NCBI RefSeq assembly: GCF_963668385.1
Contig: NZ_OY764327.1
Location: forward strand, 2,852,001-2,916,000
From: an uncultured Carboxylicivirga sp.
GTDB lineage: Bacteria > Bacteroidota > Bacteroidia > Bacteroidales > Marinilabiliaceae
Length of the DNA: 64,000 nucleotides
Direction: 5' to 3'
Both the position numbers and the translations under genes were made by a program. This document shows positions 5,289 to 59,197 of this stretch, one piece after another. Under the pieces are notes generated by a model. The model did no database searches and was not told where the DNA came from. It worked only from the letters and a program-made list of their open reading frames with translations. The stretch's first letter is position 1; each line of letters starts with the position of its first letter.

Positions 5289-5291
5289 ACT

Positions 5292-19571: not shown

Positions 19572-19595
19572 TACTTGAATTTAATATTTATAAAC

Positions 19596-20243: not shown

Positions 20244-20288
20244 CACAAGAATTAATCAATTATTTATAACAACAAAAAGAGAAAAATC

Positions 20289-21131
20289 ATGGCAGACATT
20301 AATGAGCAAAATGATTTATTTCCTTCGGTAGATGAAATCGAAGGTTTGGAAGCAGCGATTCTTAACAGAGAAGAAGATGCACTGGAAAAAGAAGAAGACC
20401 AAGATGATGCCGTAGAGGGCATTGGTGATTTGGGCAGAACACGCCGTAGGCAAAGACGCAAAGTTCGCAGAACACGAAGAAGTGCAGGGCGAAGAAGTGC
20501 GGTACGCAGGTCGTACAATGCAGGTGCTAAAAGCACAGCGGTAAAGACTGGCTTAACTCGTGATTTGACTTCAAAAGGTCAGTTTGAGTTACGCAGACAG
20601 CAATTGCCACCAGAGGTTCAAAAAGCCTTAAAGGATGCACGTATGCAAACCGTTGATGCAGCCATCTACACGGTGAAGAGCATCAAGGACAAGTCGGATA
20701 TTGATTTGATGGAAGCATCGGACGATAAGAAAGCAGGTCGTACCAACCTGAACCGTGCCCAATTGGATAGCGGTAAGTATTTCCTATTGACGGATATTGT
20801 TTTGGAGTACGCTCACGGTGCATCCGATGCCGATAGCGACCCGGCAGATTTTGCCTTTGGTCAGTTTGCTTTTCCTCCACAGATTACCAACGGTACGTTT
20901 GAAATGACTTTGGGAACAAAGGTAATTGTGCCAGAAGTATCATGTGCGGTATTCGATGATAGCGACACTACTAAGCGTAAGTTTCAGTACAAACTTTCCA
21001 ATCCAAAGTGGTTAAAACCATCAATGGACATTACGCCAAAGCTTAACATGCCAAAAGCAGTTACAGGCGATAAGGTGTTCCATCCAGCGGTTAAAGTGAC
21101 CTTGTTGGGTACGATGACTGAGAAAGCGTAA
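20289..21131 (+). CDS. Candidate major capsid protein
   Basis: A 280-aa protein. Residues 1-42 are acidic, residues about 45-80 are extremely Arg-rich (TRRRQRRKVRRTRR), and the remaining 200 residues are strand-rich with aromatic and beta-type patterns (YFLLTDIVLEYA, TFEMTLGTKVIVPEVSC). A folded beta domain with a nucleic-acid-binding arm fits a capsid protein. It sits in the structural gene cluster and is followed by its own terminator-like hairpin, as seen after highly expressed capsid genes. I could not match it to a known fold family by eye. Confidence 0.5.
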   Translation: MADINEQNDLFPSVDEIEGLEAAILNREEDALEKEEDQDDAVEGIGDLGRTRRRQRRKVRRTRRSAGRRSAVRRSYNAGAKSTAVKTGLTRDLTSKGQFELRRQQLPPEVQKALKDARMQTVDAAIYTVKSIKDKSDIDLMEASDDKKAGRTNLNRAQLDSGKYFLLTDIVLEYAHGASDADSDPADFAFGQFAFPPQITNGTFEMTLGTKVIVPEVSCAVFDDSDTTKRKFQYKLSNPKWLKPSMDITPKLNMPKAVTGDKVFHPAVKVTLLGTMTEKA

Positions 21132-21220
21132 GTCTTCAATAGCCCATCGCAGCAGAGAGCAAAACCATACTAACAAGAGGTTCAGCGCAGATGCGCTAAT
21201 TGAAGCTTCAATAAATGTCA

Positions 21221-21250
21221 AAGGGGCGGTAAAGCTACCGTCCCTTTTCC
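21221..21250 (+). terminator. Terminator or attenuator after candidate capsid gene
   Basis: A GC-rich hairpin (GGGGCGGTA at 21223-21231 with TACCGTCCC at 21236-21244, one bulge) is followed by TTTT. It lies in the 138-base gap between two genes of the same direction, so it may reduce read-through to give more capsid transcript than downstream transcript. Confidence 0.65.
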
Positions 21251-21269
21251 TTAAAAACACTCTGATACA

Positions 21270-21656
21270 ATGGAAGAACAAAACAAAAATATTAAGAAAC
21301 TGCAAGTCGTAAAGTTCGAGGTTAAAAAGGGTGACACCTATGAGTTTAATGGCAATACCAAAACTGAACACGACCGCATTAAGGGCATCTTTTTACGCCT
21401 TTCCAATGCACAAGCTTTGCAAGGTGCAACACTAAGGGTTTGGATTGATGATACCGAGATTATTCCCGATGATACCGAAGTGGCTTTGCTTCATCACAAC
21501 GATGACATGAGCATTAAAGATGTGGCATTTCCGGTGGATGAGAAAGCAAAGAACAGTCCTGTACGCATTATCTACAAAGATGACAGCGCAAACCTTGCCG
21601 TAGCGGATAGCTACCATGTACGAGTGTACCTACTTGCCGAAGTGATTAAAAAGTAA
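21270..21656 (+). CDS. Small beta-rich candidate structural protein
   Basis: A 128-aa protein with an alternating strand pattern (VVKFEVKKGDTYEF, GATLRVWIDDTEI, YHVRVYLLAEVIKK) and no membrane segment, suggesting a single jelly-roll or similar sandwich. It follows the candidate capsid gene and precedes two further beta-rich genes. Minor capsid or vertex protein is a reasonable reading, but there is no sequence motif to prove it. Confidence 0.6.
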   Translation: MEEQNKNIKKLQVVKFEVKKGDTYEFNGNTKTEHDRIKGIFLRLSNAQALQGATLRVWIDDTEIIPDDTEVALLHHNDDMSIKDVAFPVDEKAKNSPVRIIYKDDSANLAVADSYHVRVYLLAEVIKK

Positions 21657-21676
21657 CTGAATAACACCTCCTGAAA

Positions 21677-22453
21677 ATGAAAAGATACTTTGTAATAACC
21701 CACCAATCGCAAGGCAACGGACATTTGAACGTGCAAGATTTACTCCCTGCTTCCTGCAAATTAATTACAGGCATTGCCATTAATGCAACGGTAAAGCAAG
21801 ATGCAGAATTGGAAGATGTAACCGAATTATTGGCTTTCCCCAAGGCTCTGATTACAGAACTACTTCAACAGGAAAGCATCATCAATCTGTTCTATTCCTA
21901 TTTGCGAACACGCTCCTCAGAAGCCGAAAGCAAAGCCTTTTTCGAGAGTGACATTCTCCCTGAAATCATACGAATATTGGGTAATAACATTCAATATACT
22001 TGTCTGAACGACATCGAGCAGCAACTACTTAAAGACAGCATCATTACGCTTTATGAAGCTGAGTTTTCGGACTATTTGTACAATGAAGTTAAGATTTACA
22101 CCAAAGGTAAATTCCTGACCGACCTCGCCTTTTCTGACTTAATAGCCCAACAAACCTTGGTGTTTGCCTACCTCAAAAAAGAAGATGTTTTTTTACGTAC
22201 CAAAAAAGCCTACAAGCAACCCAAATCCTATGAGTGTGGCAATATCAGCTTATTGGTCAATGGCAACAGCTTCCTACTTCGTGATTACATGCTTACCGCC
22301 AATCGCAAGGTTCGCAACATGAATAAAGAAATCATCCCCTTTCACGAACCCCTTGAAGTGAATAGCAATATCCATACGGTTTTCAAGAGCAACAAAAACA
22401 GCGATGAGAATACACTAACCATCAGAATTTATATCCAATATGAACACGAGTGA
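21677..22453 (+). CDS. Unknown protein of the structural gene cluster
   Basis: A 258-aa protein. The first about 45 residues look strand-rich (YFVITHQSQGNGHLNVQDLL), the middle is helical (about 60-180) and the last about 60 residues return to strands (LTIRIYIQYEHE). It overlaps the next gene by 14 bp, indicating coupled translation. The similar start and end patterns of this and neighbouring proteins suggest parts of one particle. The family is not recognised. Confidence 0.65.
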   Translation: MKRYFVITHQSQGNGHLNVQDLLPASCKLITGIAINATVKQDAELEDVTELLAFPKALITELLQQESIINLFYSYLRTRSSEAESKAFFESDILPEIIRILGNNIQYTCLNDIEQQLLKDSIITLYEAEFSDYLYNEVKIYTKGKFLTDLAFSDLIAQQTLVFAYLKKEDVFLRTKKAYKQPKSYECGNISLLVNGNSFLLRDYMLTANRKVRNMNKEIIPFHEPLEVNSNIHTVFKSNKNSDENTLTIRIYIQYEHE

Positions 22454-22790
22454 GCTATTACATACCATCGCCAAAGACCGTGTTGCAGGAATGCGAACCA
22501 TTGACAGCTATCAGTTGAAACCGACCATTATTCAGGTTACCAATGCCGATATGTCGATTGATTTGAAAAACGACATGTGGATTCTGAATACCAAAGGTCT
22601 TCCCTCAAACATTTCGGAACTGGAGCTAATAAGCAGCGATAATGTATTCATAGCTACGCCCGATGAATACGACTTTATGGATGAGTACCGCTATCAGGTT
22701 TTTACCGATTACATCGACATCAAAACCGATACCGCAAACTTTCAACCCTACCGCTTGGAGTTTGTAAAAATAATCCCTCACCGAAACTAA
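22440..22790 (+). CDS. Small unknown protein of the structural gene cluster
   Basis: A 116-aa soluble, mostly strand-forming protein (IIQVTNADMSIDLKNDMWIL) with no cysteines or membrane segment. It overlaps the upstream gene by 14 bp and is followed 8 bp later by the coiled-coil protein gene. Probably a virion or assembly protein by context. Confidence 0.62.
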   Translation: MNTSELLHTIAKDRVAGMRTIDSYQLKPTIIQVTNADMSIDLKNDMWILNTKGLPSNISELELISSDNVFIATPDEYDFMDEYRYQVFTDYIDIKTDTANFQPYRLEFVKIIPHRN

Positions 22791-27954: not shown

Positions 27955-27960
27955 GTTTTG

Positions 27961-29097
27961 ATGGATAAACAAGGCTACATATCGAGAATACAAGCGGACT
28001 TAAAACAAGCGATTCGCCATAACAAGACTTCCATCGAGAGCATTGCCAAAAGCTTTGGAATAACCAACAAAAACTTGGTGAAGGAGTTTACGGAACTGGC
28101 AATTGTTTTGAATGCTCGTGAGATTGCACAAGATGATAAGCTGACCACTTATGAGAAGTATCTTGACATTGTAGCCCTGTATCAATCGCAGGTTAATTTA
28201 TCCATGCGAACAAGCATGAGCGTATTGATGCAGCAATATTCCACACCTGCACCCATCTCGTTTTTGGCATCGAGTTATGTTTTAAAATCGAATAGTCTAT
28301 CCGGTTATAAGGCTTTCAAAAATATCGTGAAAGGCGATAAAAATGCCAAGATTGTTGGCAATGCCCATCTTCATCCTGAACGAACCGAAACTGAATCACT
28401 GTATTTAGAACCATCGGCAGGAAATGGCTTATTAACCATCGCTTTACCGTATTCGCAGACTTATGTGAACGAATTGGATGATGTTCGTTTGAGCAATTTA
28501 AAGGAACAGCCATTTGCAAAAGTGAGTAGTTGGGATGCTTTAAATCCTCCTTATGCCTACGATAGAAAGTTCAACGGTGTGGTAAGTAATCCACCGTTTG
28601 GAACGTTATCAGAGCCTATTTTATTTGGCAAGTTTAAAATCAAACGATTGGAACATGCCATGTGTCTCAAAGTTCTTCGGTGCATGAAGGACAATGGCAA
28701 AGCTGCACTCATTATTGGCGGTCATACCACTTGGGATGACCAAGGAAGAGTAACTGCCGGACAAAACCGCATCTTCCTGAATTACCTCTATCACTTTTAC
28801 AATGTGGAAGACATCATTCCCATTAATGGTAAGAAACTCTATTCACGTCAAGGCACATCATTCAATACCCGATTGATTTTGATTGATGGTGCAAAGTTCA
28901 AACCCGATGGTGCAGCTCCACTAAAGAATAAACTCCATAGCACAATGGTCAATAGCCACGAAGAACTTTGGGATAGAGTGTGGTTAGAGAATCCAAAAAC
29001 TATCACCCCAAATAACCAAATAAGCTTAGCCAAGATTAGAGCCAAAGCCATTCTTATAAAACAAAAACAATCTCCCGATTATGAAGTCAGACATTAA
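27961..29097 (+). CDS. N6-adenine-type DNA methyltransferase-like protein
   Basis: A 378-aa protein with a SAM-binding motif (LEPSAGNGLL, about residue 149) and the catalytic NPPF motif (about 210), as in phage adenine methyltransferases that often accompany strawberry-notch helicases. The C terminus ends KIRAKAILIKQKQ plus eight residues, a tag shared with the next two proteins. The end overlaps the helicase gene by 17 bp. ATG 27961 is preferred over TTG 27958. It may mark phage DNA or protect it from host restriction. Confidence 0.85.
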   Translation: MDKQGYISRIQADLKQAIRHNKTSIESIAKSFGITNKNLVKEFTELAIVLNAREIAQDDKLTTYEKYLDIVALYQSQVNLSMRTSMSVLMQQYSTPAPISFLASSYVLKSNSLSGYKAFKNIVKGDKNAKIVGNAHLHPERTETESLYLEPSAGNGLLTIALPYSQTYVNELDDVRLSNLKEQPFAKVSSWDALNPPYAYDRKFNGVVSNPPFGTLSEPILFGKFKIKRLEHAMCLKVLRCMKDNGKAALIIGGHTTWDDQGRVTAGQNRIFLNYLYHFYNVEDIIPINGKKLYSRQGTSFNTRLILIDGAKFKPDGAAPLKNKLHSTMVNSHEELWDRVWLENPKTITPNNQISLAKIRAKAILIKQKQSPDYEVRH

Positions 29098-32000
29098 AAT
29101 AGAAAAAAACAGCATAGCGGTAAAGTTCAATGCTATACCGCCCTCACACATTTCAGCTCGTTTGGTTGAACTTGGTTTTAGGACCAGGGACAACAAGTAT
29201 TTTATCCGTACTCAAAAGTTGGCTCAAAACGAACATGAGTACTTGCAGGGTATGTTCGGATTGAAAGGCTTGGGCATGGCTTACATTCCAACTGCCGAAA
29301 AGGGTTTCATCTTAGACACCACCGTTCCCGATTCAATGGGACACGAAATGCACATTGCCATTCGTAAAATCAAAAAGAGTATTGGAATGCCTTTGTTTGA
29401 TTTCGTTGCCGAAAAACTCGATTACAATAATGATGAACTGGTTAAGTCCCTTTCGTGCGAACAAATTGATGCTGTATCTCTGGCCATCTACAACATTGAA
29501 AAACGCAATCAGGGAATTATCGTTGGCGACCAAACAGGAATTGGCAAAGGACGAACCGCAGCAGCTCTTATTCGTTATGGTGTTAAGTCGGGATTACAAC
29601 CTATTTTCTTATCAGAAAAGCCCAACCTCTTTACTGATTTGTACCGTGATTTATCAGACATTGGTAGTTCTTCTTTAGTTCCGTTTATCGTTAATGCTAA
29701 GGAAAGCAAAACCAATATCAAGGACAAAAACGGAGAAGTGATTTATACGGCTCCTGAAAAACCAACTCAGGAACGCATCATCAAAAGTCAAAGCATACCC
29801 AATAATTACAACTTTGTGTGTGCCACTTATTCGCAATTTAATCAGCCCAAGAAACCTGCAAAACAACAGCTTCTAACTTCGGTTTCGAATGGCAATATCA
29901 TCATAATGGATGAAGCGCACAATGCTTCTGGCAGCTCCAACACAGGAGAGTTTATGCAAGATGTGTTGCGCCAAACCAAAGGGGTTTGTTTCTTATCAGC
30001 CACCTTTGCCAAACGTCCTGATAACATGCCCATATACGCTCAAAAAACATCCATGAGCGATGCCAATATGAGTAAAGAGGACTTGGTGGAAGCCATCACA
30101 AAAGGCGGTGTGGCATTGCAAGAAGTTTTGGCAGCTCAATTGGTTTCTGAAGGGCAAATGATTAGGCGTGAACGCTCTTTTGAAGGTGTGGAAGTCAACT
30201 ACATTGAACTAAAGGAAAAAGCACAAGAGCAAGCCGAAATAGCCGACAAAGTAACGTCCATTATTCGTGATATTATTGGCTTTCAGGAGAAGTATATCAA
30301 CAAACAAGTAAAGGAACTTGATGGGATTGCAGCGGCCGAAAGTAAGGAAGTAGCTACTCGCAAAGGAACAGAGAAAGCTGGCGTTGATAATATTCCCTAC
30401 TTCTCAAAAGTGTTCAATGTCATCAATCAATTACTTTTTAGCCTGAACGCTGCCGATGTTGCCGACCATGCCATCATGCGATTGAAAGAGGGCAAAAAGC
30501 CCATCATTGCTTTTGCATCTACAATGGGTAGCTTTTTAGAAGGAATGGCAAAGCCTGATGATGTGATTAATGGCGATTTCTCAACGGTTTTGGAAAAAGG
30601 ATTAGATTCTGTTCTTCGCTATACTGAAAAGGATATTGACGGAGAAAGCGAGGGCAAAACCTTTAATGTATCTGACTTAGCGGAAGAAGCTCAATATGCT
30701 TATCGTGATATTTTAAAACGCATCGAACAGGCTTCGACAGGCATTACCATTAGTCCACTCGATTTAATCATTCAGAAAATTAAAGAAGCCGGATACACCG
30801 TTGGCGAGGTAACTGGACGAAAGCTTTGCGTTCAGTACAACTCCACTAAAAAGAACAATACCACGGCATTGGTTTTAAGTCGAAAAAAAGAAAATACATC
30901 TGACTTATTTCGTCAGTACAACGACAATGAGATTGATTGTTTGCTGATTAATCAAAGTGGTTCAACAGGAGCTTCGGCTCATGCCATAGTAACCGATAAA
31001 GTAGCTGCAAAAGATGTCAAGCAGCGTGTGATGGTCATACTCCAACCAGAACTGAATATCAATACAGAAATTCAAAAGCGTGGACGTATCAACCGCACAG
31101 GGCAAATAATGAAACCAATTTACGATTACATTATTTCATCCATTCCGGCACAAAAACGCTTTATGATGATGCTTAAAAAGAAGCTGAAATCATTGGATGC
31201 CAACACCACTTCCAACCAAAAGAGTAGCAAGTCACAATTAGAATCGGATGACTTTTTGAATAAGTATGGCGATAAAGTGGTACGCCAATACATGTTGGAA
31301 AATCCCGAACTAAATAAGGTGTTGGATAATCCCTTGAAATTTGAGGGTAAAGACAGCGATGAAACACCATCCGAGGGTGATGCTTCAAAAGTGACCGGAC
31401 GTGTGGCGGTTCTTTCAGTAAAGGAACAAGAGAAATTTTACAGCGAAGTAATTGAGCGTTACAACGATTATATAGAGTACCTCAAGCAAGCCGATGAATA
31501 CGACCTTGAAGTGGAAATTCTCGACCTAAAAGCAGAATCGCTTGAAAAGCGTGTGGTGATTGCAGGTAAAGGCGGTCGCTCTGTTTTTGGCAATGATACT
31601 TTTTTGGAAAAATGCGATTGTAACGTTTTAAAAAAACCTTACGGCAAGCCTGAACTGGAAAAGCTCGTTAAAAAGAGCCTGAATGGAAAACACCCCGATA
31701 GCATTACTGAAGAAACAATTGCAGCTCACGAAAAGTATGTTCAAAGCAAGTTAAATGAAGATTTAAAGGAGCTTGAAAACAAGTACAAAGATTTAATTGC
31801 TGATGTTCCCAATGAAAAGGCATATCAGAAAATTGCTGTATTTGATAAGGCAGCTCAAAAGGCATTTATCGAAGAACGCACCGATGAATTGGAGACTGCA
31901 AAACGAGAATCCATTTCAAGAGCAAAAACCCAAAGTGAGAACCGCAAAGCCTATCTAAATGGCTTCTTTAAATTCTTCAAAGTGGGTCATGGCTACCATT

Positions 32001-33028
32001 ACCCTGCTCTTAGTTTTGAAACAACAAGTACCGATAATGCTTATTGCATCTTTCTTGGTTTCGACATCAATACTAAGCGTAGTAATCCCTATGCGCCATC
32101 TGCCGTAAAGCTTCGCTTTGCCATAGCCGATAGTCGCAAATACATTGTGTTGGCTTCATCGGGAGATACTGCCAAAGAGATTGAGCGAATTCAAGCACGA
32201 AGTTTTCAGTTAAGCACTTCGCAAAAGGAAAGCTTGATTGATAAATGGGATGAAGCGATTAAGGGCTTTACTCTGGACAGACAAACTCGTTACATAGTAA
32301 CAGGAAATATTCTACAAGGTGCTGCCGATTTTTCGGGCAAACTGGTAAGCTTCACCACCAAAGGCAAAGGCATTCAAAAGGGTATTTTGATGTCCGAAGC
32401 ATGGTCGCCCGATAATAACGACAACAAGGCAAACAGCTACGTGGTTGCGCCAATAGCCAAACTTCAAAAACACATTCTTAGCCTTAGAAGTGGTGCAAGC
32501 ATAGCCACCGAAAACAAGATTTCTTTTATACGGCATCACGATGATACCTTTAAAATCATCATGCCCAAAACCAAGAGCCACATTCCAATCTATACCGATA
32601 AGGAAGTACTTAAACTATTGGTCAATAATCGGGACGGTTTTGAAATGATTTCGGGCAATATGAAAGCTTCGGTTACCTCTGATAAAATGCCCAAACTCTT
32701 GCAAGTACTTGGAGAGCGATTCAGCTTATCGGTAAAGATTCCACGCCACTACTACGATGAGTATTTGGAGAAAGGAACCAAGCCTTCCAACTCCACCGAT
32801 AGTCTTACCCAAGAGGCAATGAAAATGTTTGAGACGGATAAAAAAGCCTTCCCTCGCAAGCTGGCTATGCAGAAGCAAAGCTCAACCAAAAGCAAAACGG
32901 CAAGCATCGACACATCTAAGAACATCAAGCTGATTAAACTCCGTGCCAAAGCCATTCTGATTAAGCAAAAACAGTTACGCAATGTGGCAGGTTTTGGTGG
33001 TCATCCTAAAATCAAAACCATCCTATGA
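29081..33028 (+). CDS. Strawberry-notch-type superfamily 2 helicase
   Basis: A 1315-aa protein of the strawberry notch (SBNO) family found in large phages and plasmids. Walker A GDQTGIGKGRTAAA lies at about 149-162, DEAH in IIIMDEAHNASGSS (about 273), the SBNO C-lobe motif NQSGSTGASAHA at about 624 and motif VI QKRGRINRTGQ at about 664. The last about 550 residues are an uncharacterised extension that ends with KLRAKAILIKQKQ followed by 18 residues. It likely remodels DNA or chromatin on entry or in replication. It overlaps the next gene by 4 bp. Confidence 0.9.
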   Translation: MKSDIKIEKNSIAVKFNAIPPSHISARLVELGFRTRDNKYFIRTQKLAQNEHEYLQGMFGLKGLGMAYIPTAEKGFILDTTVPDSMGHEMHIAIRKIKKSIGMPLFDFVAEKLDYNNDELVKSLSCEQIDAVSLAIYNIEKRNQGIIVGDQTGIGKGRTAAALIRYGVKSGLQPIFLSEKPNLFTDLYRDLSDIGSSSLVPFIVNAKESKTNIKDKNGEVIYTAPEKPTQERIIKSQSIPNNYNFVCATYSQFNQPKKPAKQQLLTSVSNGNIIIMDEAHNASGSSNTGEFMQDVLRQTKGVCFLSATFAKRPDNMPIYAQKTSMSDANMSKEDLVEAITKGGVALQEVLAAQLVSEGQMIRRERSFEGVEVNYIELKEKAQEQAEIADKVTSIIRDIIGFQEKYINKQVKELDGIAAAESKEVATRKGTEKAGVDNIPYFSKVFNVINQLLFSLNAADVADHAIMRLKEGKKPIIAFASTMGSFLEGMAKPDDVINGDFSTVLEKGLDSVLRYTEKDIDGESEGKTFNVSDLAEEAQYAYRDILKRIEQASTGITISPLDLIIQKIKEAGYTVGEVTGRKLCVQYNSTKKNNTTALVLSRKKENTSDLFRQYNDNEIDCLLINQSGSTGASAHAIVTDKVAAKDVKQRVMVILQPELNINTEIQKRGRINRTGQIMKPIYDYIISSIPAQKRFMMMLKKKLKSLDANTTSNQKSSKSQLESDDFLNKYGDKVVRQYMLENPELNKVLDNPLKFEGKDSDETPSEGDASKVTGRVAVLSVKEQEKFYSEVIERYNDYIEYLKQADEYDLEVEILDLKAESLEKRVVIAGKGGRSVFGNDTFLEKCDCNVLKKPYGKPELEKLVKKSLNGKHPDSITEETIAAHEKYVQSKLNEDLKELENKYKDLIADVPNEKAYQKIAVFDKAAQKAFIEERTDELETAKRESISRAKTQSENRKAYLNGFFKFFKVGHGYHYPALSFETTSTDNAYCIFLGFDINTKRSNPYAPSAVKLRFAIADSRKYIVLASSGDTAKEIERIQARSFQLSTSQKESLIDKWDEAIKGFTLDRQTRYIVTGNILQGAADFSGKLVSFTTKGKGIQKGILMSEAWSPDNNDNKANSYVVAPIAKLQKHILSLRSGASIATENKISFIRHHDDTFKIIMPKTKSHIPIYTDKEVLKLLVNNRDGFEMISGNMKASVTSDKMPKLLQVLGERFSLSVKIPRHYYDEYLEKGTKPSNSTDSLTQEAMKMFETDKKAFPRKLAMQKQSSTKSKTASIDTSKNIKLIKLRAKAILIKQKQLRNVAGFGGHPKIKTIL

Positions 33029-35034
33029 GCAAGCGAAAAAACATAGAGCTTCGTACCGACCGCTTTCCCGAATTAAAGGGCATAGATGATGATGTAGAGA
33101 AAGCCTTACAAGACAAGCAAAAAAACCGTCAGTTTAAAGATGCAGGTAAACGTGTACATGGCTCTCGAAAAGAACAGGCAATGTACAGCAAACTCATTAG
33201 CAGTAGCGACCTGAACAGCATTGAACAAGATGAAGCTACTGCCATTGAACTCATCAAAAAAGATAAGGTTTTTCCAAAGGTAGATGCCCAATTTGAAAAG
33301 GAAAATGGAACAGATGCAGGTTGTGCGTACCTGAAAACCAAAATACGCCAAGCATTCCCTGCTACGCCTTATCAAAACTCAAAACAGGCAAGAGAGCAGT
33401 ATGTAAAAATGGCGGAAGCAATTCAAACCATACTGAGTGAAGCCATTGTTATTGAAGACCTGAAAAAGCTTTTTGCCATTGCTACCAATGGAGAGATAAT
33501 TGAGAAGACCGATTTCGGAATGATATTCGGAAAGCAGCTTCGCAACATTGTGTTTGTTCTTTACGGTTATTCCAATGGTGTTGGTGCAGCAAAAAAAACA
33601 ATCATTGAAGCAAGGCAATACTCTGGTGTTTCAGAGGAAACCGCAGCTCCTCTTTTCAATAATCTAAAGGCGTATTACGACAACCTAACCAAAAGACAGC
33701 AAAAGTGTATTGATTCAGCCAAGCAAATTATATCAGCAGCCGATTTAAAAAGACATAAATCGGATGACCTAACCTTTCGAGGTGGAATGCTTAATAGTGC
33801 AAAAAGCATTGAGGAGTATGTGAAATATGTAACCAGTGTTTGCACCCGATTTATTAACGACTACCAAAGAGAATTTAATACCAAGAAAGAACAATTCCCT
33901 TACAAAGAATTTAAGCCTGATTGGTCATGGGCAGAAACCAAGAAAACTGCCAAAGCAAGAAGCAATACAAAACCTACTCTTGAAGCCGTTCCACTATCAT
34001 ACATAAAGCGCACAGGTGGTTTATTAATTGAGGAAGCTGATGAACAAACGGTAATTAAGAACCTGCATTTTAAATCGCTTACTCTTGGGAACTACGTTAA
34101 GGATACCGAAGCAAGAGAACACATTCGACATTTTGTTGCAGCCATCGTTGATTTATGCGAAGTATTGGACATCAATTTGAGTGTAAATGAAAACTTGGCA
34201 ATCGGTTTTGGTGCATTCGGTCGTGGTGGTAAAGCAATGGCGACCTATTACCCAACTCGGCAGCTCATCAATCTAACCAAACGAAATGGCGATGGTTCTG
34301 TAGCGCATGAGTGGGGTCATTTCTTCGACCATTTTATTAACTCCTTTGAGTTAAGTAAACTGCCATTGCGTTCAGAAAACTACAATGAGTTAATCCTTAA
34401 AGAATTTGGAAGCAAACGAAAGTATCTAACCAGCCCAAAATCATCACTTCGAGCAGATTACTTTAAAAGTTTTGTGGCATACATTATCGAGAAATCAATT
34501 CCCGAATCACCATTTCATAAAAGCATGGCAGGGCTTATTGCAATGCTACGCTTTGGTTATAATCATTTAGATGATTCATTAGTAAGCTTTACGCAACCCA
34601 ATAGCCACGAAAAGAAACCCACGGATTCATACTTGTATTATCACTCCAAGCTCCAAGGTTCATACTGGAGTAATATTGCTGAAATGTTTGCCCGAAGCTT
34701 TGAGTGCTATGTGTATGACAAACTGAAAGAAGAAGGCAGGGTAAACAATTACTTAGTTTCAGGCGGTCTGTTCTCCTTTCCGGTTTATCCTCAAGGCAAA
34801 GAAAGGGAGTGCATCAATAAATGTTTCGACCATCTTATTGATGCTATGAAAACGCATTTATCCATCAAGCCATTTAAGCCATTCACTTCTGAACGTGCCG
34901 ATGAATACATCGACCTAACCAACGATGGTAAGGTCAATAAAGGTGTGATAGTGGGTAAAGACCGCAAACTAAAACTTGTCAAAATAAGAGCTAAAGCAAT
35001 CCTCATAAAACAGAAACAACTTAAAATATCATAG
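33025..35034 (+). CDS. HEWGH metallopeptidase-like polyvalent protein (LPD1-like)
   Basis: A 669-aa protein. The central domain has NENLAIGFGAFGRGGKAMA (about 391-409), then a strand, then VAHEWGHFFDH (about 427), a zincin HExxH motif as seen in the LPD1 domain of phage and plasmid polyvalent proteins. The N-terminal 300 residues are helical and charged. The C terminus ends KIRAKAILIKQKQLKIS, the same tag as the two upstream proteins. Polyvalent proteins are often delivered with DNA into the new host, which fits a shared signal. Confidence 0.78.
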   Translation: MSKRKNIELRTDRFPELKGIDDDVEKALQDKQKNRQFKDAGKRVHGSRKEQAMYSKLISSSDLNSIEQDEATAIELIKKDKVFPKVDAQFEKENGTDAGCAYLKTKIRQAFPATPYQNSKQAREQYVKMAEAIQTILSEAIVIEDLKKLFAIATNGEIIEKTDFGMIFGKQLRNIVFVLYGYSNGVGAAKKTIIEARQYSGVSEETAAPLFNNLKAYYDNLTKRQQKCIDSAKQIISAADLKRHKSDDLTFRGGMLNSAKSIEEYVKYVTSVCTRFINDYQREFNTKKEQFPYKEFKPDWSWAETKKTAKARSNTKPTLEAVPLSYIKRTGGLLIEEADEQTVIKNLHFKSLTLGNYVKDTEAREHIRHFVAAIVDLCEVLDINLSVNENLAIGFGAFGRGGKAMATYYPTRQLINLTKRNGDGSVAHEWGHFFDHFINSFELSKLPLRSENYNELILKEFGSKRKYLTSPKSSLRADYFKSFVAYIIEKSIPESPFHKSMAGLIAMLRFGYNHLDDSLVSFTQPNSHEKKPTDSYLYYHSKLQGSYWSNIAEMFARSFECYVYDKLKEEGRVNNYLVSGGLFSFPVYPQGKERECINKCFDHLIDAMKTHLSIKPFKPFTSERADEYIDLTNDGKVNKGVIVGKDRKLKLVKIRAKAILIKQKQLKIS

Positions 35035-35036: not shown

Positions 35037-35882
35037 ATGAAGCTTACAATAAACAATTACAAGGAAGCCACCAAGCATATTGATTTCTCAAAACTACCCG
35101 AAGCAGCAAGGGAGGCACACAAAGAATTCGATTCATTTGCCGATTTCTACAATGAGGATAAGGACATTAAAGAAATGTTGGATAATCACTTCAAGATTGT
35201 TGAGCCACATCTTAAAGATGAACCCAAGAAAAGCCCTGCAAAAGAGAAAGCTCCTGCAAAATCAAAAGCAAAAAAGGCAGCACCTAAAACAAGTACCAGG
35301 AACAAAACGGCAAAGCGAAAATCAACTCCTAAAAAGGCAGTTCGCAAAACCAATGAAGTTCCTTTAATTCCTTTGGAAGTCAGGATAATCAAACGCTACC
35401 TGAACCTGCATGACAAAACGGTTTCAGAGAAACAAGTATCGCTTCTGTATAAGGTTATTCAGAAGGCTGCAACGGAGCGAACCATACGCAAAACCAGTAA
35501 GTATGCGCTTGTCATAAAGCGCATTGGTGATGACCTAGCAAGCACTTACAAGGAGATGAACAATACTGCCAAATTTGAAGTACCAAATCAGCTTAAAGCT
35601 ACGCTCGATAAGATTGTGGACAGCTACGGTGTTACACCTGCCGTATCCTTGATTAAACGCTTTATTAATTTGTATGGAAACATTACGATGGAGAAAGCTC
35701 AAAGGCTACTTACTAGTATTAAAAATGCAAAGAAAAGCGATAAGGTATCAAGTAAAGATAGTGCTTACGATAGGGTTAATCAGGTTCAAAAACACTTGGA
35801 GGATTACCTTGAAAGCGACAAGCTTCTTGTAACCGATATTCAGCTAAATGGTTTAAAAGGACTTGCCGGATTGGGAAAGTAA
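35037..35882 (+). CDS. Basic helical protein, likely frameshift partner of the ATPase
   Basis: A 281-aa protein. Residues 1-65 are acidic and helical, about 66-107 form a histone H1-like Ala/Lys/Pro linker (PAKEKAPAKSKAKKAAPK), and the rest contains two related helical repeats (IKRYLNLHDKTVSEKQ and IKRFINLYGNITMEKAQ). It ends NGLKGLAGLGK at a TAA that directly follows the slippery heptamer GGGAAAG. A -1 shift there would extend it by about 212 residues into the downstream ATPase frame. Probably DNA-binding. Confidence 0.75.
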   Translation: MKLTINNYKEATKHIDFSKLPEAAREAHKEFDSFADFYNEDKDIKEMLDNHFKIVEPHLKDEPKKSPAKEKAPAKSKAKKAAPKTSTRNKTAKRKSTPKKAVRKTNEVPLIPLEVRIIKRYLNLHDKTVSEKQVSLLYKVIQKAATERTIRKTSKYALVIKRIGDDLASTYKEMNNTAKFEVPNQLKATLDKIVDSYGVTPAVSLIKRFINLYGNITMEKAQRLLTSIKNAKKSDKVSSKDSAYDRVNQVQKHLEDYLESDKLLVTDIQLNGLKGLAGLGK

Positions 35883-35914
35883 ACGCCACTACTACAACGC
35901 CTCAAAGTAGTGGC
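35873..35914 (+). promoter_or_regulatory. Programmed -1 ribosomal frameshift site
   Basis: The heptamer G GGA AAG (35873-35879) is in the zero frame, immediately before the TAA at 35880. After a 5-nt spacer a perfect 9-bp stem follows: GCCACTACT (35885-35893) with AGTAGTGGC (35906-35914). The -1 frame is open from 35813 through the slip site to 36517 and has no ATG before 35993. GGGAAAG is the slippery sequence of the phage lambda G/GT frameshift. No T run follows the hairpin, so it is not a typical terminator. Confidence 0.78.
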
Positions 35915-35965
35915 TCAATACCAAGGGCAAATATATCAAGTAACACAACAGTCGCTTCCAATCAG

Positions 35966-36517
35966 GTGGTATCAGCTGAGCAATTGGCTAAGATGAAGTT
36001 CTCCACCTTATCTCTTGGTGGGAAGTTCGGCAAATTACTTGGTCAACCTTACAAGCCATTTTATCTAATGATTTATGGTCAGCGGTTTCATGGAAAAAGT
36101 TCAGTAGCCATGCTTTTAGCCGATGTATTGGCAACCAAAAACATGAAAGTGCTTTACGTTTCCAATGAAGAGGGTGTAAAAGGCTCTCTTCAAGAAAAGT
36201 TATTGCGATTAAAAATCAGTAGTCCAATCCACTTTGTTGAAGATTATAACCCTAGTCAATTCAAAGGTTACGATGCGATTTTCTTGGATAGTACTCAAAC
36301 CGTAGGCATGAAGCCTGATGAGTTCAAAGCACTCAAAAGGCAATATCCAAACACTTCATTTATCCTTGTTTTTAAAGCCAATCGAGATGGCACTTCAAAG
36401 GGTGGTAGTGATTGGGAGCATGATAATGATGCCATTATGCACATCGAAAATCAATGTGCAACAATGGAGAAAAACCGTTTTCCGGGCGGTAGTACCGAAA
36501 CCATTAAAATATTCTAA
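35966..36517 (+). CDS. RecA-like P-loop ATPase (C-terminal part of a frameshift fusion)
   Basis: A P-loop protein with Walker A GQRFHGKSS (about 29-37 from the GTG at 35966), Walker B DAIFLDS and a downstream GGSDWEHDNDAIMHIEN region, resembling RadA/DnaB/Sak4-type recombination ATPases. The only nearby ATG (35993) lacks a ribosome-binding site, and the frame is open upstream to 35813. The extra upstream residues are Ser/Thr/Pro-rich like an interdomain linker, so the main product is probably the -1 fusion with the upstream basic protein. As a free protein it would be 183 aa. Confidence 0.75.
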   Translation: MVSAEQLAKMKFSTLSLGGKFGKLLGQPYKPFYLMIYGQRFHGKSSVAMLLADVLATKNMKVLYVSNEEGVKGSLQEKLLRLKISSPIHFVEDYNPSQFKGYDAIFLDSTQTVGMKPDEFKALKRQYPNTSFILVFKANRDGTSKGGSDWEHDNDAIMHIENQCATMEKNRFPGGSTETIKIF

Positions 36518-36857: not shown

Positions 36858-37268
36858 ATGAAACTATTTGGAAAACTAGCAAATGCCGGAGTAGCAGAAA
36901 CTCTGAAAGAAGGCACGAAACTCATTGATGAAATATTTACCACCCAAGAAGAAAAGCTTCAGGGGAAAATGGAGCTATTTAAAATGGCAGTTACCGACCG
37001 TGATTCTGCACGAGATATGTACTCAAAAGACAGTTGGCTACAAAAGGTCTTTGCCCTTTTTTTTCTACTTGCATGGATTGGATTAACCACTTTAATGCTG
37101 AATTACTTCGTGTTTCAATCTATCGACCTGCAAGATTGGCAAATAGCATTTGTGAGCAGTATTAACGGTGGAATATCCACCAAACTAAGCACCATTATCG
37201 ACTTCCTTTTTGGAGGTGCAATCAGCGGTGTAAATGACATTAACCTTAAATCAAAACGTAAAGGATGA
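36858..37268 (+). CDS. Phage holin, three-transmembrane-type
   Basis: A 136-aa protein. A charged N-terminal part (TDRDSARDMYSKDSWLQK) leads to two clear hydrophobic segments (FALFFLLAWIGLTTLMLNYF and a later one ending IDFLFGGAISG), the pattern of 3TM-type holins with their D-x-A-R and FGG-x-x-G motifs. It is followed by a 4-bp overlap with the lysozyme gene. It would form membrane holes that release the endolysin. Confidence 0.78.
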   Translation: MKLFGKLANAGVAETLKEGTKLIDEIFTTQEEKLQGKMELFKMAVTDRDSARDMYSKDSWLQKVFALFFLLAWIGLTTLMLNYFVFQSIDLQDWQIAFVSSINGGISTKLSTIIDFLFGGAISGVNDINLKSKRKG

Positions 37269-37828
37269 AAACATTTGACGATCTCTTTGATGGCGTAATT
37301 AAGCACGAGGGCTATTACGCCAATGTGACTGGCGACCGTGGTGGAGAAACCTATATGGGAGTAGCCCGAAACCTGCATCCAAAATGGGAAGGATGGGCGT
37401 ACATTGATGCTTACAAAGAGATGCATGGCACAATCAAGTGGAATTTCAAAATAAATATTCCAGAACTGACCCAATTGGTAAAAGACTTCTACAAAAAAGC
37501 ATTCTACGATAAATACAGTATCGAGAGCATCAATAATGGCTCACTACAAGAAATCATCTTTGATTGGTGCGTAAATAGTGGACATTGGGGCAGTCGTGGC
37601 GTTCAGCGTGTATTAAATCAGTTTTTTAATGTTGATTTAAAGATGGATGGAATTTTTGGCAAACAATCCCTTGTAGCCATTAACGGTTGTAATCCAATGG
37701 AACTATTCAATGGAATAAAAATGGCTCGTATTCATTATTACAATACCATTGCTAATAAAGGTCAGAATCAGAAGTTTTTGAAGGGGTGGTTGCGAAGGAT
37801 AAATGCAATTGAGTTTAAGCAGAATTAA
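37265..37828 (+). CDS. Endolysin, GH108 N-acetylmuramidase
   Basis: A 187-aa lysozyme. The GH108 domain has the catalytic Glu in VIKHEGYY (about residue 15) and the conserved GDRGGETYMGVAR (about 23-35), with a C-terminal peptidoglycan-binding 3 domain (VQRVLNQFFNVDLKMDGIFG). It cleaves the sugar backbone of peptidoglycan for lysis. No signal peptide is present, so it depends on the upstream holin. The length is typical. Confidence 0.92.
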   Translation: MKTFDDLFDGVIKHEGYYANVTGDRGGETYMGVARNLHPKWEGWAYIDAYKEMHGTIKWNFKINIPELTQLVKDFYKKAFYDKYSIESINNGSLQEIIFDWCVNSGHWGSRGVQRVLNQFFNVDLKMDGIFGKQSLVAINGCNPMELFNGIKMARIHYYNTIANKGQNQKFLKGWLRRINAIEFKQN

Positions 37829-38194: not shown

Positions 38195-39268
38195 TTATAT
38201 CACCAATTTCATTTTACCCTTATGAAATCTTGGATTACAAAAATCATTTATAATATCAACTGGCAAGCAAAAAGCTTTAGATAATTCTTCATCAGAATAT
38301 TCAAGATCACTTTTGTGCATTTTATAACCAGACTCAAATAGGGTTGGAGAATCAATGGGAACATTCAGTCTTTCATTCTTTTTTAAGCCTAGCCTACTCA
38401 TTTCAATATTCAGATATGTGTATCTATCCTTATCAATACAACCTAAATCATATGCCCTCCTTAAAATCGAAGCCATTGAAGTTAGCCAGTATTTTTTTAG
38501 CTCAGATAAAGAAGAGAGCTTAAGTCCGTACAACGATTTTTTAATATCGCTCTCTGGCATTAAAAATTCAGAAGCAAACATATCAGCCTCTCGTTCCCTT
38601 GTTTTATGGTCTCTATAATCAGGAATAGGGAAGCCTCCTAATACATGCATTATCATATGTCCTAATTCATGCGCAAGAGTAAAACGTTTCCTGTCATTCG
38701 AAAACCTTTTATTTATTATAATGATAGGACATCCTTCATCCGACTTAATAGAAGCTCCATCAAACTTCTCTGTTATATCAATTTCAACAACGACAATTCC
38801 ATGTCGTTCAAGCAATTGAAAAATATCTTGAACTGGCCTCCCTGACTTTAGTCCCATACTCTTTCTTGTATGGTTGGCAATGTTTTTGACGGAATAGCCA
38901 TCCTCAATATCCAAGGTGTCTAAATTGAATTCTGGCCATTCAATTGATTCTGTCATTTGGTCAACGATGTAACCTACTAGTTTGATGCTTGACTCTATGT
39001 TAGTTACAATCTTTTTACTTATTGTAGAACGTTTCCGGTAATGAGGGTTTTCAACAGTGTTTGAGATGGATTTACTTAAGAAACCACTGGGGAAATTTAA
39101 AAAACCAATTACCTTCACAATCAACTCTTCAGATAGCGTGCTAATTCCTTTTTCAAACTTTGATAAATTTGATTGAGATAGTCCAGAAACATTCTTTGCT
39201 AGTTCTGATTGAGAGTAACCTCTGTATTCCCTAGCAAATGTTAGCTGTTTAAAATTAATTTCCATCAC
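38195..39268 (-). CDS. XRE regulator with ImmA/IrrE metallopeptidase domain
   Basis: A 357-aa protein. The N-terminal helix-turn-helix (about 4-60, YRGYSQSELAKNVSGLSQSN) is followed by an ImmA/IrrE peptidase domain with HELGH (about residues 200-204) and a downstream EADMFASEFLMP helix carrying the third zinc ligand. Such fusions act as phage or element repressors that are inactivated by proteolysis, or as antitoxins. It is convergent with the lysis genes and probably transcribed with, or next to, the unknown gene at 39327. Confidence 0.88.
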   Translation of the reverse strand: MMEINFKQLTFAREYRGYSQSELAKNVSGLSQSNLSKFEKGISTLSEELIVKVIGFLNFPSGFLSKSISNTVENPHYRKRSTISKKIVTNIESSIKLVGYIVDQMTESIEWPEFNLDTLDIEDGYSVKNIANHTRKSMGLKSGRPVQDIFQLLERHGIVVVEIDITEKFDGASIKSDEGCPIIIINKRFSNDRKRFTLAHELGHMIMHVLGGFPIPDYRDHKTREREADMFASEFLMPESDIKKSLYGLKLSSLSELKKYWLTSMASILRRAYDLGCIDKDRYTYLNIEMSRLGLKKNERLNVPIDSPTLFESGYKMHKSDLEYSDEELSKAFCLPVDIINDFCNPRFHKGKMKLVI

Positions 39269-40087: not shown

Positions 40088-41329
40088 TTATTCTTCCTTG
40101 TTTAGCAAATCAAGTACCTTCCTATTCAAATCATCAACCAATTCATTGTCATAATCAAAATAGGTATCGGTTACGGTTGAAGTGCCATGGCCAAGAGCCT
40201 GAGCAATTAGAGGCTTGCCAGCCCCGATTGGTTTCTTGGCTGCTGAACCTGCCCAAGAGTGTCGAGCGTGATACATAATTAATTCGGGAACACCTACTTT
40301 TTTACCGATTGGTTTTAAAGCTCTATTGATAGCCTGTTGCAATGTTTCCGAACCTTTATACCGTTCTTGGTATATTAGGAATTTTTCTCTCCCTTTCCTT
40401 CGTTCAAATATTTCCTTTGCTTCAGGTTCGACTTTGATAGAATAAGGTTTGGATGTTTTGTTCCGGTTATATTCGATTCTTCCTTCTATAATTGAGGATA
40501 TATCATAGATGTCGGAGTTATTCATCCCGATTAAGTAAAATGATAGCATAAAGAAATCTTGTGCTAAAGCTTCAAGTTCGTTTTCCGGCTCAACATCACG
40601 AATAGCACGAATTGTTGCAATAGGCAGTCTCAGATTACGTGCCTGTATTTTTTCTATCTTAAATTTTCTAAATGGATAGCTATTTTGAGGAACTAATTCA
40701 TCAACATCAATAGCTTGATTAAAAACAATTTTAATCACGGATAAGGTTAAGCTTGTTGTGGATTGTGCAACTTCCGCCTGCCTCCATCTCTTAAATCGGC
40801 TTAACCATGCAGTTGTAATCTCATCGAAATACAGTTTATTGCCATCTCCTACGTATCGTTTTACAGCCTTTAATGCTGCGGTGTAGGTGTGTTGAGTGTG
40901 TGGGTTACTTAGGAAAGAAATGTAATCAGCAAAGTATTGCAAGAAGTCAACCCTTTCACCATTTTGGGCATCTTGCTTTATTGCAGCACCTTTCTTGTGG
41001 TCACCCTCAATGCTACCATAGTTCTTGATGAAATCCGAAATGTCGGAAACCTTCATACTGTCAAGCTTCCTTGAGTTCTTCAAAAATTCAATACAGTTCC
41101 AAGCTTTGCTTAATTCGTCGTTGAGATAGTTGTTAATCAAACGAAGGTTGTCATGTTGCGGACAGCCCTTTTTTACTCTATCCTTGGCATCTTTATCCCA
41201 AAATTCAGAATCGACTGATTTATTCAATGATATTTCTGTGTTTTTACCTTTGTGAGAAAGACCAAGAACAATGGTATTTGTTTTATCCGCATTCTTCCCT
41301 CTTCGTAACATTAATTTTGCAGTTGCCAT
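40088..41329 (-). CDS. int: Tyrosine-type site-specific integrase of the prophage-like element
   Basis: A 413-aa recombinase of the Bacteroidota mobile-element type, starting MATAKLMLRRGKN. An N-terminal arm-type and a SAM-like core-binding domain (about 100-200) precede the catalytic domain with ARHSWAG (box II Arg, about 351), the LGHGTS motif and a final Tyr in TDTYFDYD (about 385). The usual first catalytic Arg region reads FYLIGMNNSDI, so its assignment is uncertain. ATG 41329 is preferred to the TTG at 41368. It would integrate and excise the element. Confidence 0.88.
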   Translation of the reverse strand: MATAKLMLRRGKNADKTNTIVLGLSHKGKNTEISLNKSVDSEFWDKDAKDRVKKGCPQHDNLRLINNYLNDELSKAWNCIEFLKNSRKLDSMKVSDISDFIKNYGSIEGDHKKGAAIKQDAQNGERVDFLQYFADYISFLSNPHTQHTYTAALKAVKRYVGDGNKLYFDEITTAWLSRFKRWRQAEVAQSTTSLTLSVIKIVFNQAIDVDELVPQNSYPFRKFKIEKIQARNLRLPIATIRAIRDVEPENELEALAQDFFMLSFYLIGMNNSDIYDISSIIEGRIEYNRNKTSKPYSIKVEPEAKEIFERRKGREKFLIYQERYKGSETLQQAINRALKPIGKKVGVPELIMYHARHSWAGSAAKKPIGAGKPLIAQALGHGTSTVTDTYFDYDNELVDDLNRKVLDLLNKEE

Positions 41330-41625
41330 ATAATTCAATTTAAGTTTAACAATCATTTTAATTTTCAATGATTGAGTTAAAACTTGTCCTTGGTTTAATC
41401 ACAAAAGTAATATTACAGGGCAAAAATTCAACGCATTTCTAACGCATTTTTATACTTCAAAAAGGGCTTTTTTGCCCCAAATGGGTATTTTGTCGAAATT
41501 GGCGTAATAAGTTTTATTACGATGCAAGAATTTAATAATCAGTTAATTGATTGATTTTAAGGGAGTGATATTTTGAGAGGAATTTTAGTCGTTTTTTATA
41601 TCACGGCTATTATTTTTATACATTG

Positions 41626-46054: not shown

Positions 46055-46202
46055 TGTTGGTTTTTTGTTTCAAGTTAGTTTAATTTCCCAATTGGACATA
46101 ATTCTCCCACTTAGGTTCCTTGTAATTATTCGATCAAATTATTGTCCGAATATACAAGTTAGTCCGTGTTTATTGAGCTGGTCTCGCTCTTATATATCAA
46201 AT

Positions 46203-46430
46203 CTATTTTATTCGTTTTGCTCTACGATCTAAATTTTGTTTTTCAGAACGTTTTTGTCTGAAGTCCTCTAATTTGATTTTCGAACAAAGCTTATTAAACT
46301 GGATTTCTTTGTCTAATTCAGTCTGTATTATTTTTCGAGTTTTTTCGAGTCCTGCTGGTTGTCCTGTTGATGTATTAATTTCAATTTTATATGCTGGTTT
46401 TCTCCGTCCGTCCGACTTTTGAGAATTCAT
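46203..46430 (-). CDS. Cassette gene: small basic protein
   Basis: A 75-aa Lys/Arg-rich protein with a helical C-terminal half (LEDFRQKRSEKQNLDRRAKR) and no membrane segment. It occupies the cassette between attC sites 4 and 5. The reading is simple and in cassette direction, but no family is known to me. Confidence 0.5.
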   Translation of the reverse strand: MNSQKSDGRRKPAYKIEINTSTGQPAGLEKTRKIIQTELDKEIQFNKLCSKIKLEDFRQKRSEKQNLDRRAKRIK

Positions 46431-46481
46431 TCACGTCTGTTTTTATTTGTTAATGATTCTTATGCACTGAGTTTTATAATA

Positions 46482-46616
46482 GGGCGTAACGTTTGCTGGA
46501 TGAAGTCGTGGCGCGTTAGTCGTGGTGTCGTGTCACCCGTTAGGGGGACTAAGACAGTAGACAAAGGCGTCAGGACGAGCAAAGCGCGCCATGCTTTATT
46601 CCAGCGTGTTACAGGC
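46482..46616 (-). repeat. attC site 5 (common type)
   Basis: Boxes GGGCGTAAC (46482) and GTTACAGGC (46608). The first is complementary to GTTACGCCC at 46046. Confidence 0.9.
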
Positions 46617-46636
46617 CGTGTGTTATTCTTGTTTTG

Positions 46637-46867
46637 TTTTTCTGTCATATATTTTTCATTTTCCGACACATCTATTTGATTTACTGTCTCAAGAAAATGA
46701 TTCTCCGTCATATATTTATTGCTTATCATCTACTACAAATCATGTTCAGTCATGTGTTTTTCATTTTCAGTCACCTATAAATCATTTTCTGCCACTAACT
46801 TTTCATAAACCGATGCCAGAAAATCAAATTTTCATGACCGGGAATCATAATTTCATCGTCGTGAATG
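46637..46867 (-). repeat. Degenerate 21-bp repeat array, decayed cassette gene
   Basis: Eleven consecutive 21-bp units with a loose plus-strand consensus ATTTTCnGTCA followed by 10 variable bases. Read on the minus strand they encode heptapeptides such as VTENEKH, MTENHFL and VSENEKY, but several stop codons interrupt the frame, so any gene is now broken. It fills the cassette between attC sites 5 and 6; the rest of that cassette (46868-47026) shows nothing. Confidence 0.72.
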
Positions 46868-47026
46868 AAAATTTAAATAATTCACAAAAAAATGTAGAGT
46901 TGAAGTCAAAATAAAGTTAATGTCTTTAAAACGTACAACATGGTCACAGAAATTGAAATAATTGTCAGTCTTAATGTTTGAGTGTTTTACTAAAATACAG
47001 ATACAAGGACGAGAAGTACCCGACAT

Positions 47027-47760: not shown

Positions 47761-48186
47761 TTATTTTTCATATATAATAATTACATCTAAAGTCGAATCG
47801 GTATAGTTCACTTGCTCTATTTGAGTTATTGGTTCTAATTCATGTGAATACGAAATTTTCAATGTGTCGAATGAAACCCACTCAGTCTTTACAGTTGTTC
47901 CTGATATATGTTCTGTTGAAAACACTATTTTTGTTTTAAGGTCTTCAGTTTTGTTCTTGTTTCCTAAATCAATTGACACATGAATAGAAGAATTTGTTAC
48001 AGCATTTCCTCCAAATTCAAATATAGTTGCTTGTCTTAAACCTTCATTGTCGTAAACAGTTTCTATAATTTGTTTCTCAGGCTCTCCAAACATGTCAAAT
48101 GAACTAATGAAAATTACAAAGCTAATTACTAATCCAACTAATAAAATCAATGTAGTCAGAAGTCCATATTTTACGATTTTATTCAT
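47761..48186 (-). CDS. Cassette gene: membrane-anchored small protein
   Basis: A 141-aa protein with one N-terminal membrane segment (GLLTTLILLVGLVISFVIFI) and an outer-facing domain with an Ig-like strand pattern (ASIHVSIDLGN-like and TLDVIIIYEK). It fills its cassette almost completely. The function is unknown. Confidence 0.7.
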   Translation of the reverse strand: MNKIVKYGLLTTLILLVGLVISFVIFISSFDMFGEPEKQIIETVYDNEGLRQATIFEFGGNAVTNSSIHVSIDLGNKNKTEDLKTKIVFSTEHISGTTVKTEWVSFDTLKISYSHELEPITQIEQVNYTDSTLDVIIIYEK

Positions 48187-58986: not shown

Positions 58987-59197
58987 AAACCTAAAGGTAG
59001 CTAAAGTCCGTTGCCCTTGCTACCTTTATATGTGTTAATAAAATATTGTACCATGAAAAAAAAGCTTTACCAGAATCGATGAAGCTCGTTCTTCATTATC
59101 CAAATTTAACGAATTATACGTTAAACTGGAAAGACATATTGCTATTACCGGCAAAAGCCTGAGTACCCTGCATAATTATGGCCGTTGTCTGGCTACC

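Follow-up and report, generated by a model that had tools for sequence, protein, structure and literature searches.

A candidate −1 frameshift gene joining a duplicated helical module to a RadA/Sms-type ATPase in a likely integrated element of Carboxylicivirga

The frameshift site and its predicted products

Two overlapping reading frames meet within positions 35037–36517 (forward strand) of the window, the 64,000-nucleotide stretch of DNA from an uncultured Carboxylicivirga sp. analysed here (positions 2852001–2916000 of a genome consisting of one 6.27-Mb contig), and the question they raise is whether they are two genes or one gene with two products. A preliminary description, made from the sequence alone, proposed a programmed −1 frameshift fusing a basic, H1-like protein to a RecA-like ATPase. 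Judging from the sequence and its relatives, we give a probability of about 0.9 to the reading that 35037–36517 is one gene whose two products would arise by −1 slippage aided by mRNA structure. The occurrence of slippage, its frequency and its purpose are what we infer.

The frame-0 ORF (35037–35882, + strand) ends with the codons TTG GGA AAG TAA, placing the slippery heptamer G GGA AAG (35873–35879, + strand) in slip register and supplying, in the correct frame, the X XXY YYZ pattern required of a −1 cassette. The frame-0 stop TAA lies inside a 5-nt spacer (TAAAC, 35880–35884), which is followed by a 9-bp stem with a 12-nt loop, S1, in which 35885–35893 pairs with 35906–35914 (9 of 9 pairs formed in the window copy). 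Spacer and stem together agree with the general placement of stimulatory structures 5–8 nt downstream of the slip site (excerpts of PMC4066793). Heptamer, spacer and hairpin, at 35873–35914, were all correctly located in the preliminary description, which nevertheless overlooked that the hairpin loop can pair 10 nt beyond the stem. This second helix, S2, joins 35899–35902 (GCCU) to 35925–35928 (GGGC) and would make the structure a likely H-type pseudoknot, although in the window it has only 4 bp, one of them a G-U pair. The local RNA fold has a z-score of −2.3, with 6 of 200 shuffles folding equally well.

The −1 frame is free of stops from 35813 to 36517 in the window copy and comprises 214 codons after the shift, including the slipped pair (35873–36517). 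Following the upstream stop, no ATG, GTG or TTG appears in this frame before a GTG at 35966, which lies within the conserved domain, in keeping with the earlier claim of an open frame leading into a gene without an upstream ATG. Also borne out were the Ser/Thr/Pro-rich linker at the junction, encoded in the −1 frame only (35879–35962, the domain border being approximate), and the product sizes, which when recomputed from the ORFs are again 281 aa for the short form and 281 + 212 = 493 aa for the long form predicted from a single −1 shift.

In the mechanism we propose, ribosomes halting at 35880 would yield the 281-aa protein, while a fraction, held by the mRNA structure at 35885–35928, would shift by −1 on the G GGA AAG heptamer, tRNA-Gly exchanging its GGA pairing for GGG and tRNA-Lys its AAG pairing for AAA. 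Slipped ribosomes would continue in the −1 frame to give the 493-aa protein, carrying a RadA/Sms-type ATPase on a flexible linker. The host genome has three tRNA-Lys genes, all UUU, as well as tRNA-Gly UCC (78 tRNA places found and scanned). Passages of PMC4066793 rank GGGAAAG in the top three heptamers for shift efficiency in E. coli, and we assume that the rules carry over to the present host, a member of the Bacteroidota.

The 281-aa product consists of N-terminal helices, a Lys/Ala-rich stretch at residues 62–105 and two helical repeats, ends in LNGLKGLAGLGK and is modelled with a pLDDT of 84. The two repeat copies match each other (hhalign 97.8%), and it is this duplicated helical module, rather than the H1-like protein first proposed, that characterises the N-terminal part; composition is H1-like only across residues 62–105, where 18 of 44 are K/R. 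Assignment of the 281-aa part as a histone-H1-like protein was accordingly rejected (best Pfam E 0.07; overall composition does not fit). Foldseek returned nothing for it at E ≤ 0.001 (best 0.72), and a weak portal-protein match in PHROGs (E 0.0035) was left unused for assignment.

The C-terminal part carries GQRFHGKS (36077–36100, + strand), which we take to be the Walker A motif of the RadA-like ATPase, and KNRF (36470–36481, + strand), presumably the RadA/Sms KNRFG-type signature, reading KNRFP in the window and KNRFG in several fused relatives. Based on fold-level matches, which speak to fold and not to function, this part is a RadA/Sms-type core with a predicted ATPase function; the earlier label of RecA-like ATPase holds for the RecA-type core, but the domain resembles RadA/Sms rather than RecA itself. 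RadA/Sms proteins have an N-terminal zinc finger and a C-terminal Lon-like domain. The long product differs from these bacterial proteins in having neither, ending as it does with the ATPase core, and in being joined to a duplicated helical module; its only Cys lies in the −1 part, the 281-aa part having none.

Conservation of the slip site and of the mRNA structure

Relatives were gathered from a scan of genome contigs (36 loci), two scans of viral contigs (2 and at least 3 loci, the second with distant ATPases) and profile searches of whole genomes. At E ≤ 1e-5 the latter matched 90 of 393 genomes at order level and 38 of 395 at phylum level, at E ≤ 1e-25 they matched 48 of 395 at class level, and at E ≤ 1e-20 they matched 21 of 71 at family level; in other families, three small searches matched 7 of 14, 2 of 11 and 1 of 3 genomes. 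The survey of split and fused forms covers the best matches of the whole-genome searches, at most the best 30 loci each. It comprised 173 loci, one of which (L107) had no ATPase match, and the remaining 172, among the matches listed, were classified as 71 split −1, one split +1, 48 fused and 52 without a recognised N-terminal half. The last group was excluded; eight of its members are cut at a contig or stretch end (L009, L026, L070, L072, L112, L145, L158, L173), and most of the others are distant ATPases, in some cases with a different N-terminal part.

As some places recur among them, the 71 split(−1) loci reduce to 41 distinct sequences, drawn from several named Bacteroidales genera and one Ichthyobacteriaceae (Flavobacteriales) bin. 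Two normally started genes lacking a slip site, which the preliminary description regarded as contrary to its proposal, were sought among the matches listed, and the 86 distinct loci with both halves proved to be 44 single ORFs, 41 split −1 and one split +1 (L052, with an A8 run at the border).

The heptamer itself is GGGAAAG in 38 of the 41 distinct split(−1) sequences among the matches listed, which answers the suggestion that its conservation in homologues be checked; the other three have GGAAAAG (L015), AAAAAAG (L050) and an A9 run some way upstream of the stop (L060). A heptamer of slippery type is thus present in 40 of 41, fused relatives having no need of one, and L060 was excluded from the 40-locus heptamer, linker and stem counts. 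In the 39 distinct loci with GGGAAAG or GGAAAAG (matches listed), GGA fills the first slip codon 38 times and AAG the second in all 39, the preceding base being G throughout, whereas four different codons serve the Gly position 8 codons upstream and three the one 5 codons upstream, and elsewhere in the same ORFs Gly is encoded by GGT 136, GGA 110, GGC 87 and GGG 39 times and Lys by AAA 1063 and AAG 1011 times. The Gly 2 codons upstream is GGA in 29 of 35, so some bias reaches beyond the heptamer. Synonymous choice is frozen at the slip codons, and this conservation points to a programmed frameshift site. One locus, L036, had been considered an exception owing to a match starting only at residue 20, a view that was discarded when its DNA was found to contain GGGAAAG-TAG, an 8-bp stem and a longer linker.

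Conservation extends to paralogues within the host. Four copies of the gene occur in the genome, all split alike, the other three having 71–75% DNA identity to the window copy and two of them lying in neighbouring copies of the same ~21.6 kb block. GGGAAAGTAANNGCC has exactly 4 occurrences in the 6.27-Mb genome, all within the four gene copies, against 0 for the reversed-pattern control, and TGGGAAAGTAAA together with the stem is present in 4 of 4.

Stem S1 is established, being found in 40 of 40 heptamer loci among the matches listed, with a single mismatch in L016 and with changes on both sides across loci. S2 is possible 9–12 nt past S1 in 37 of these 40; the exceptions are L010 (3 bp), L036 (none found) and L050 (not G-C rich). 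Pairing is retained through sequence change in L042, where GUCC/GGAC replaces the usual GCCC/GGGC, and in L004 and L017, which have A-U in place of U-A. An alignment of 27 distinct rows, omitting L002, L019, L020, L022, L023, L010, L016, L038, L036, L050 and L159 of the 40, has 96% of cells paired and both-sided changes in 5 of 14 pairs, and 0 of 500 shuffles reach its paired percentage, its both-sided changes or its covariation score; L002-type loci, absent from it along with other outliers, have the second helix in a shifted register. A second alignment of 25 rows, omitting 17 of the 40 loci and including L009 and others, several of them absent from the first, has 86% of cells paired (2 of 500 shuffles as high) and five pairs with both-sided changes (0 of 500). 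Further pair types do not exceed shuffles (113 of 500 as high for 27 rows, 198 of 500 for 25 rows), and all of these shuffles ignore the relatedness of rows.

The stimulator could be a pseudoknot or a simple hairpin, with the second helix coincidental. S2 by itself has both-sided changes in two of five pairs (3 cells, 27 rows). A hairpin would be sufficient in so far as S1 alone provides 9 bp in the window and L036 and L050 have no comparable S2; loop and tail are moreover coding, so that GCCC and GGGC may persist for the sake of amino acids, and shuffling the tail at each locus gives an S2 as good in 0–41% of cases (median 4.5%, 33 distinct loop-tail pairs), which makes the helix no more than modestly unlikely at single loci. 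These points are outweighed in our judgement by the recurrence of S2 at 9–12 nt from S1 in 37 of 40 loci and by the compensated pairs of L042, L004 and L017. We therefore consider a simple hairpin unlikely, and an H-type pseudoknot the likely stimulator.

Alternatives to frameshifting and the fused relatives

The stretch between the two halves behaves as translated sequence. In the −1 frame no stop interrupts it in any of the 40 heptamer loci (matches listed), despite length variation by whole codons, and it spans 23–30 codons in 38 of them and 72 and 74 in L036 and L050. Start codons show no such constancy: an ATG precedes the domain in the −1 frame of 22 of the 40, at one place inside the hairpin loop in 12 of these, only GTG or TTG does so in five, and none of the three is present in 13, the window included, such that no conserved ATPase start codon exists across the 40 heptamer loci among the matches listed.

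This bears directly on the alternative that the ATPase is a separate gene, translated by re-initiation or from an internal start (GTG 35966 or the ATG of LAKMKF), and that the heptamer is incidental. The frame-0 stop and the second frame are close together, the 27 loci with a linker ATG, GTG or TTG offer possible starts, and conservation of the M in LAKMKF reaches at least 90% in a set of 14 relatives. Against this, 13 loci have no pre-domain start at all; LAKM lies inside the conserved domain, and L036 lacks its M; the linker upstream of LAKM stays open while changing length in whole codons; the heptamer codons are frozen; and the two halves are simply in frame in 44 relatives. On these sequence grounds a conserved separate ATPase start is excluded, and with no conserved start and a translated linker we reject a separate ATPase gene as the main route, judging it very improbable. 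A minor start may be used at the hairpin-loop ATG of those relatives that have one, which the window does not.

The preferred reading, a single gene with two products, gains from the 44 distinct relatives (matches listed) in which the N-terminal module and the ATPase occupy one stop-to-stop frame, many of them sharing with the window an LNGLxG-like motif where the halves meet. With both halves in one frame, the predicted frameshift product is the ordinary protein in those branches. In an ATPase tree of 64 of the 86 distinct loci, frameshift loci form one group of 19 rows (18 with GGGAAAG or GGAAAAG, plus L050) with support of 100/100, placed among the fused ones, while L052 and L060 fall outside it, the former on a long branch and of unsure placement. 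Frameshift loci thus constitute one clade, many of its members being near copies, and count as roughly a single origin.

The existence of in-frame relatives also admits the opposite explanation, namely that an in-frame gene has decayed or been misassembled, and draft genomes are indeed the source of L052 and L060, the isolated splits with an A run. However, 41 distinct split(−1) sequences are known among the matches listed from several Bacteroidales genera and one Ichthyobacteriaceae bin, both halves are still open and conserved, and in the window genome, a single contig, four copies are split identically. For the main GGGAAAG clade this explanation was rejected and has, in our view, a negligible probability, though it may hold for L052 and L060.

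A-runs at the junction may hint that recoding recurs at this border. An A9–A10 run is found at the junction in six of the 44 fused ORFs among the matches listed (L054, L057, L063, L124, L136, L138), and the same border has A9 in the split locus L060 and A8 in L052. Across the 44 ORFs such runs number 8 overall versus a synonymous-shuffle mean of 17.1, whereas junction ORFs with A≥9 number 6 versus a mean of 2.4 (500 shuffles, maximum 6), the junction window having been chosen after seeing the data; with A≥8 there are 6 versus 4.8 by shuffling, no clear excess. Chance alone should place stops in the other frames near these runs, and such stops were left out of the count. Runs of nine A allow slippage of bacterial RNA polymerase, as in Thermus dnaX (excerpts of PMC5009743), and we regard recurrent recoding from the junction runs as a weak hint.

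Beyond these loci, a phage collection contained no match for the 281-aa protein and one distant match for the window ATPase. With the ATPase of a distant relative as query, 39 phage records and 26 plasmid records matched at <60% identity, and many of those from plasmids carry the annotation RadA. A relative of the ATPase with 34–36% identity also occurs in a 636-kb uncultured phage record (LR756504.1:200495–200995), extending the domain to very large phages.

Genomic setting and comparison with known systems

The gene stands in a set of genes with inferred roles in DNA handling. Upstream, on the + strand, are a 379-aa protein of unassigned function that is conserved in gene order (27958–29097), a Strawberry-notch type helicase (AAA_34, Helicase_C_4; 29081–33028) and an LPD1 protein (large polyvalent protein-associated domain 1, PF18796; 33025–35034), the last of which lies between helicase and frameshift gene in the window. 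Of seven contexts examined, fused and split, six preserve the order of 27958-like gene, helicase and frameshift or fused gene; the seventh, L258, has an unmatched 425-aa ORF at that place, adjoining the contig end. An LPD domain and a Strawberry-notch helicase, either of which in the same element marks the polyvalent gene set, are both present. The 27958-like gene and the helicase form one ORF in L252 (11728–16914, 1729 aa) and L254 (3857–8590, 1578 aa), a second gene border of the set that is thus fused in some elements. The products of 27958–29097, 29081–33028 and 33025–35034, otherwise unlike, have near-identical C-termini around (I/L)RAKAILIKQKQ, with acidic variants such as LELEAESIIIMQMQ in L036; this shared motif could be a packaging or delivery tag.

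Downstream lie a coiled-coil protein, a holin-like protein (by eye) and a lysis-type glycosyl hydrolase 108 gene (37265–37828, + strand). A tyrosine integrase (Arm-DNA-bind_5, Phage_int_SAM_5; 40091–41368, − strand) and an HTH/peptidase M78 regulator beside it (38198–39268) make an integrated element likely, of which they are probably the right-hand integration and control genes. The proteins scanned included no recognisable terminase or portal, and Pfam gave no match for six ORFs at 17037–22787.

The ~21.6 kb block (16229–37825) occurs three times within ~160 kb, near 2807–2829, 2868–2890 and 2944–2969 kb, with roughly 57–92% protein identity, and a right-hand partial copy lies near 5.206–5.218 Mb; no match to the LPD1 gene was found in the third copy. 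Defence-type cargo at 1046–15956 includes type I restriction-modification genes, a KwaB-like protein, DUF3732 and a weak ABC-3C match, and a diverged type I set lies to the left of the third block copy. The stretches at 46177–46914, 47764–48186 and 59057–61068 have copies of up to 100% protein identity around 2972–2984 kb, and a short ORF (46371–46676) has partial matches at at least 14 places in the fetched regions, representing either recent duplications or a repeat family.

We posit that the helical module common to both products would serve in DNA binding or as a scaffold, with the RadA-like motor as its partner, and that they would act beside the Strawberry-notch helicase encoded in the same DNA-handling set of a phage-like integrated element. 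If dnaX is a guide, slippage would probably serve to set the ratio of motor-free to motor-bearing subunits, the short ones diluting or anchoring those with a motor in mixed complexes on DNA. More tentatively, and with some doubt, the two forms at this border may be old and selected, the device having been switched several times (pseudoknot GGGAAAG, AAAAAAG, A8–A10 runs, fusion), with the ratio determining the composition of a mixed RadA-like ring for processing element DNA upon its entry.

Such a gene family would enlarge the known bacterial programmed frameshifts by one with deep comparative support and a likely pseudoknot stimulator varied by evolution. Its split and fused relatives indicate what the frameshift product would be and provide a natural experiment on keeping two forms. 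Gene callers blind to frameshifts would overlook the fusion and annotate the ATPase as a gene of its own with an odd start. The family is also an entry point to the Strawberry-notch/LPD gene sets, for which a role on incoming DNA is as yet a prediction. No report of this frameshift was found among the matches listed in open-licence PMC full text, nor in the excerpts of PMC5512222, PMC4066793, PMC5009743 and PMC3711429.

Of known systems, the tail-chaperone G/GT gene of tailed phages shares the heptamer and the phage-like setting. The slippery heptamer of lambda G/GT is GGGAAAG. Excerpts of PMC5009743 give the same heptamer for the archaeal virus HCTV-5. Here, unlike in G/GT, the gene is not recognisable as one of tail assembly, the product is an ATPase fusion, the frame-0 stop is immediate and a conserved structure lies downstream, so the earlier remark that this is not the usual tail-chaperone case stands. 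RadA-like ATPases in multidomain proteins of mobile elements are a feature in common with the Bacteroidetes polyvalent proteins of Iyer et al. 2017, for whose SMS/RadA domain excerpts of that paper (PMC5512222) suggest action on incoming DNA; the word frameshift is absent from its main text.

The best reading, by analogy, is a dnaX-like dual-product gene of a polyvalent-type DNA-handling set. As in dnaX (tau/gamma), one gene would give two products with a common N-terminal part, the long form gaining a domain, from a slippery site at the domain border plus a stem. Bacteria reach tau and gamma differently: excerpts of PMC5009743 and PMC3711429 describe a frameshift for tau with the gamma stop directly after the site, and in Thermus transcript slippage on an A run. 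The present gene is unrelated to dnaX and differs in that the ATPase is the added C-terminal part rather than the shared part, and in its GGGAAAG heptamer, likely pseudoknot and location on an integrated element.
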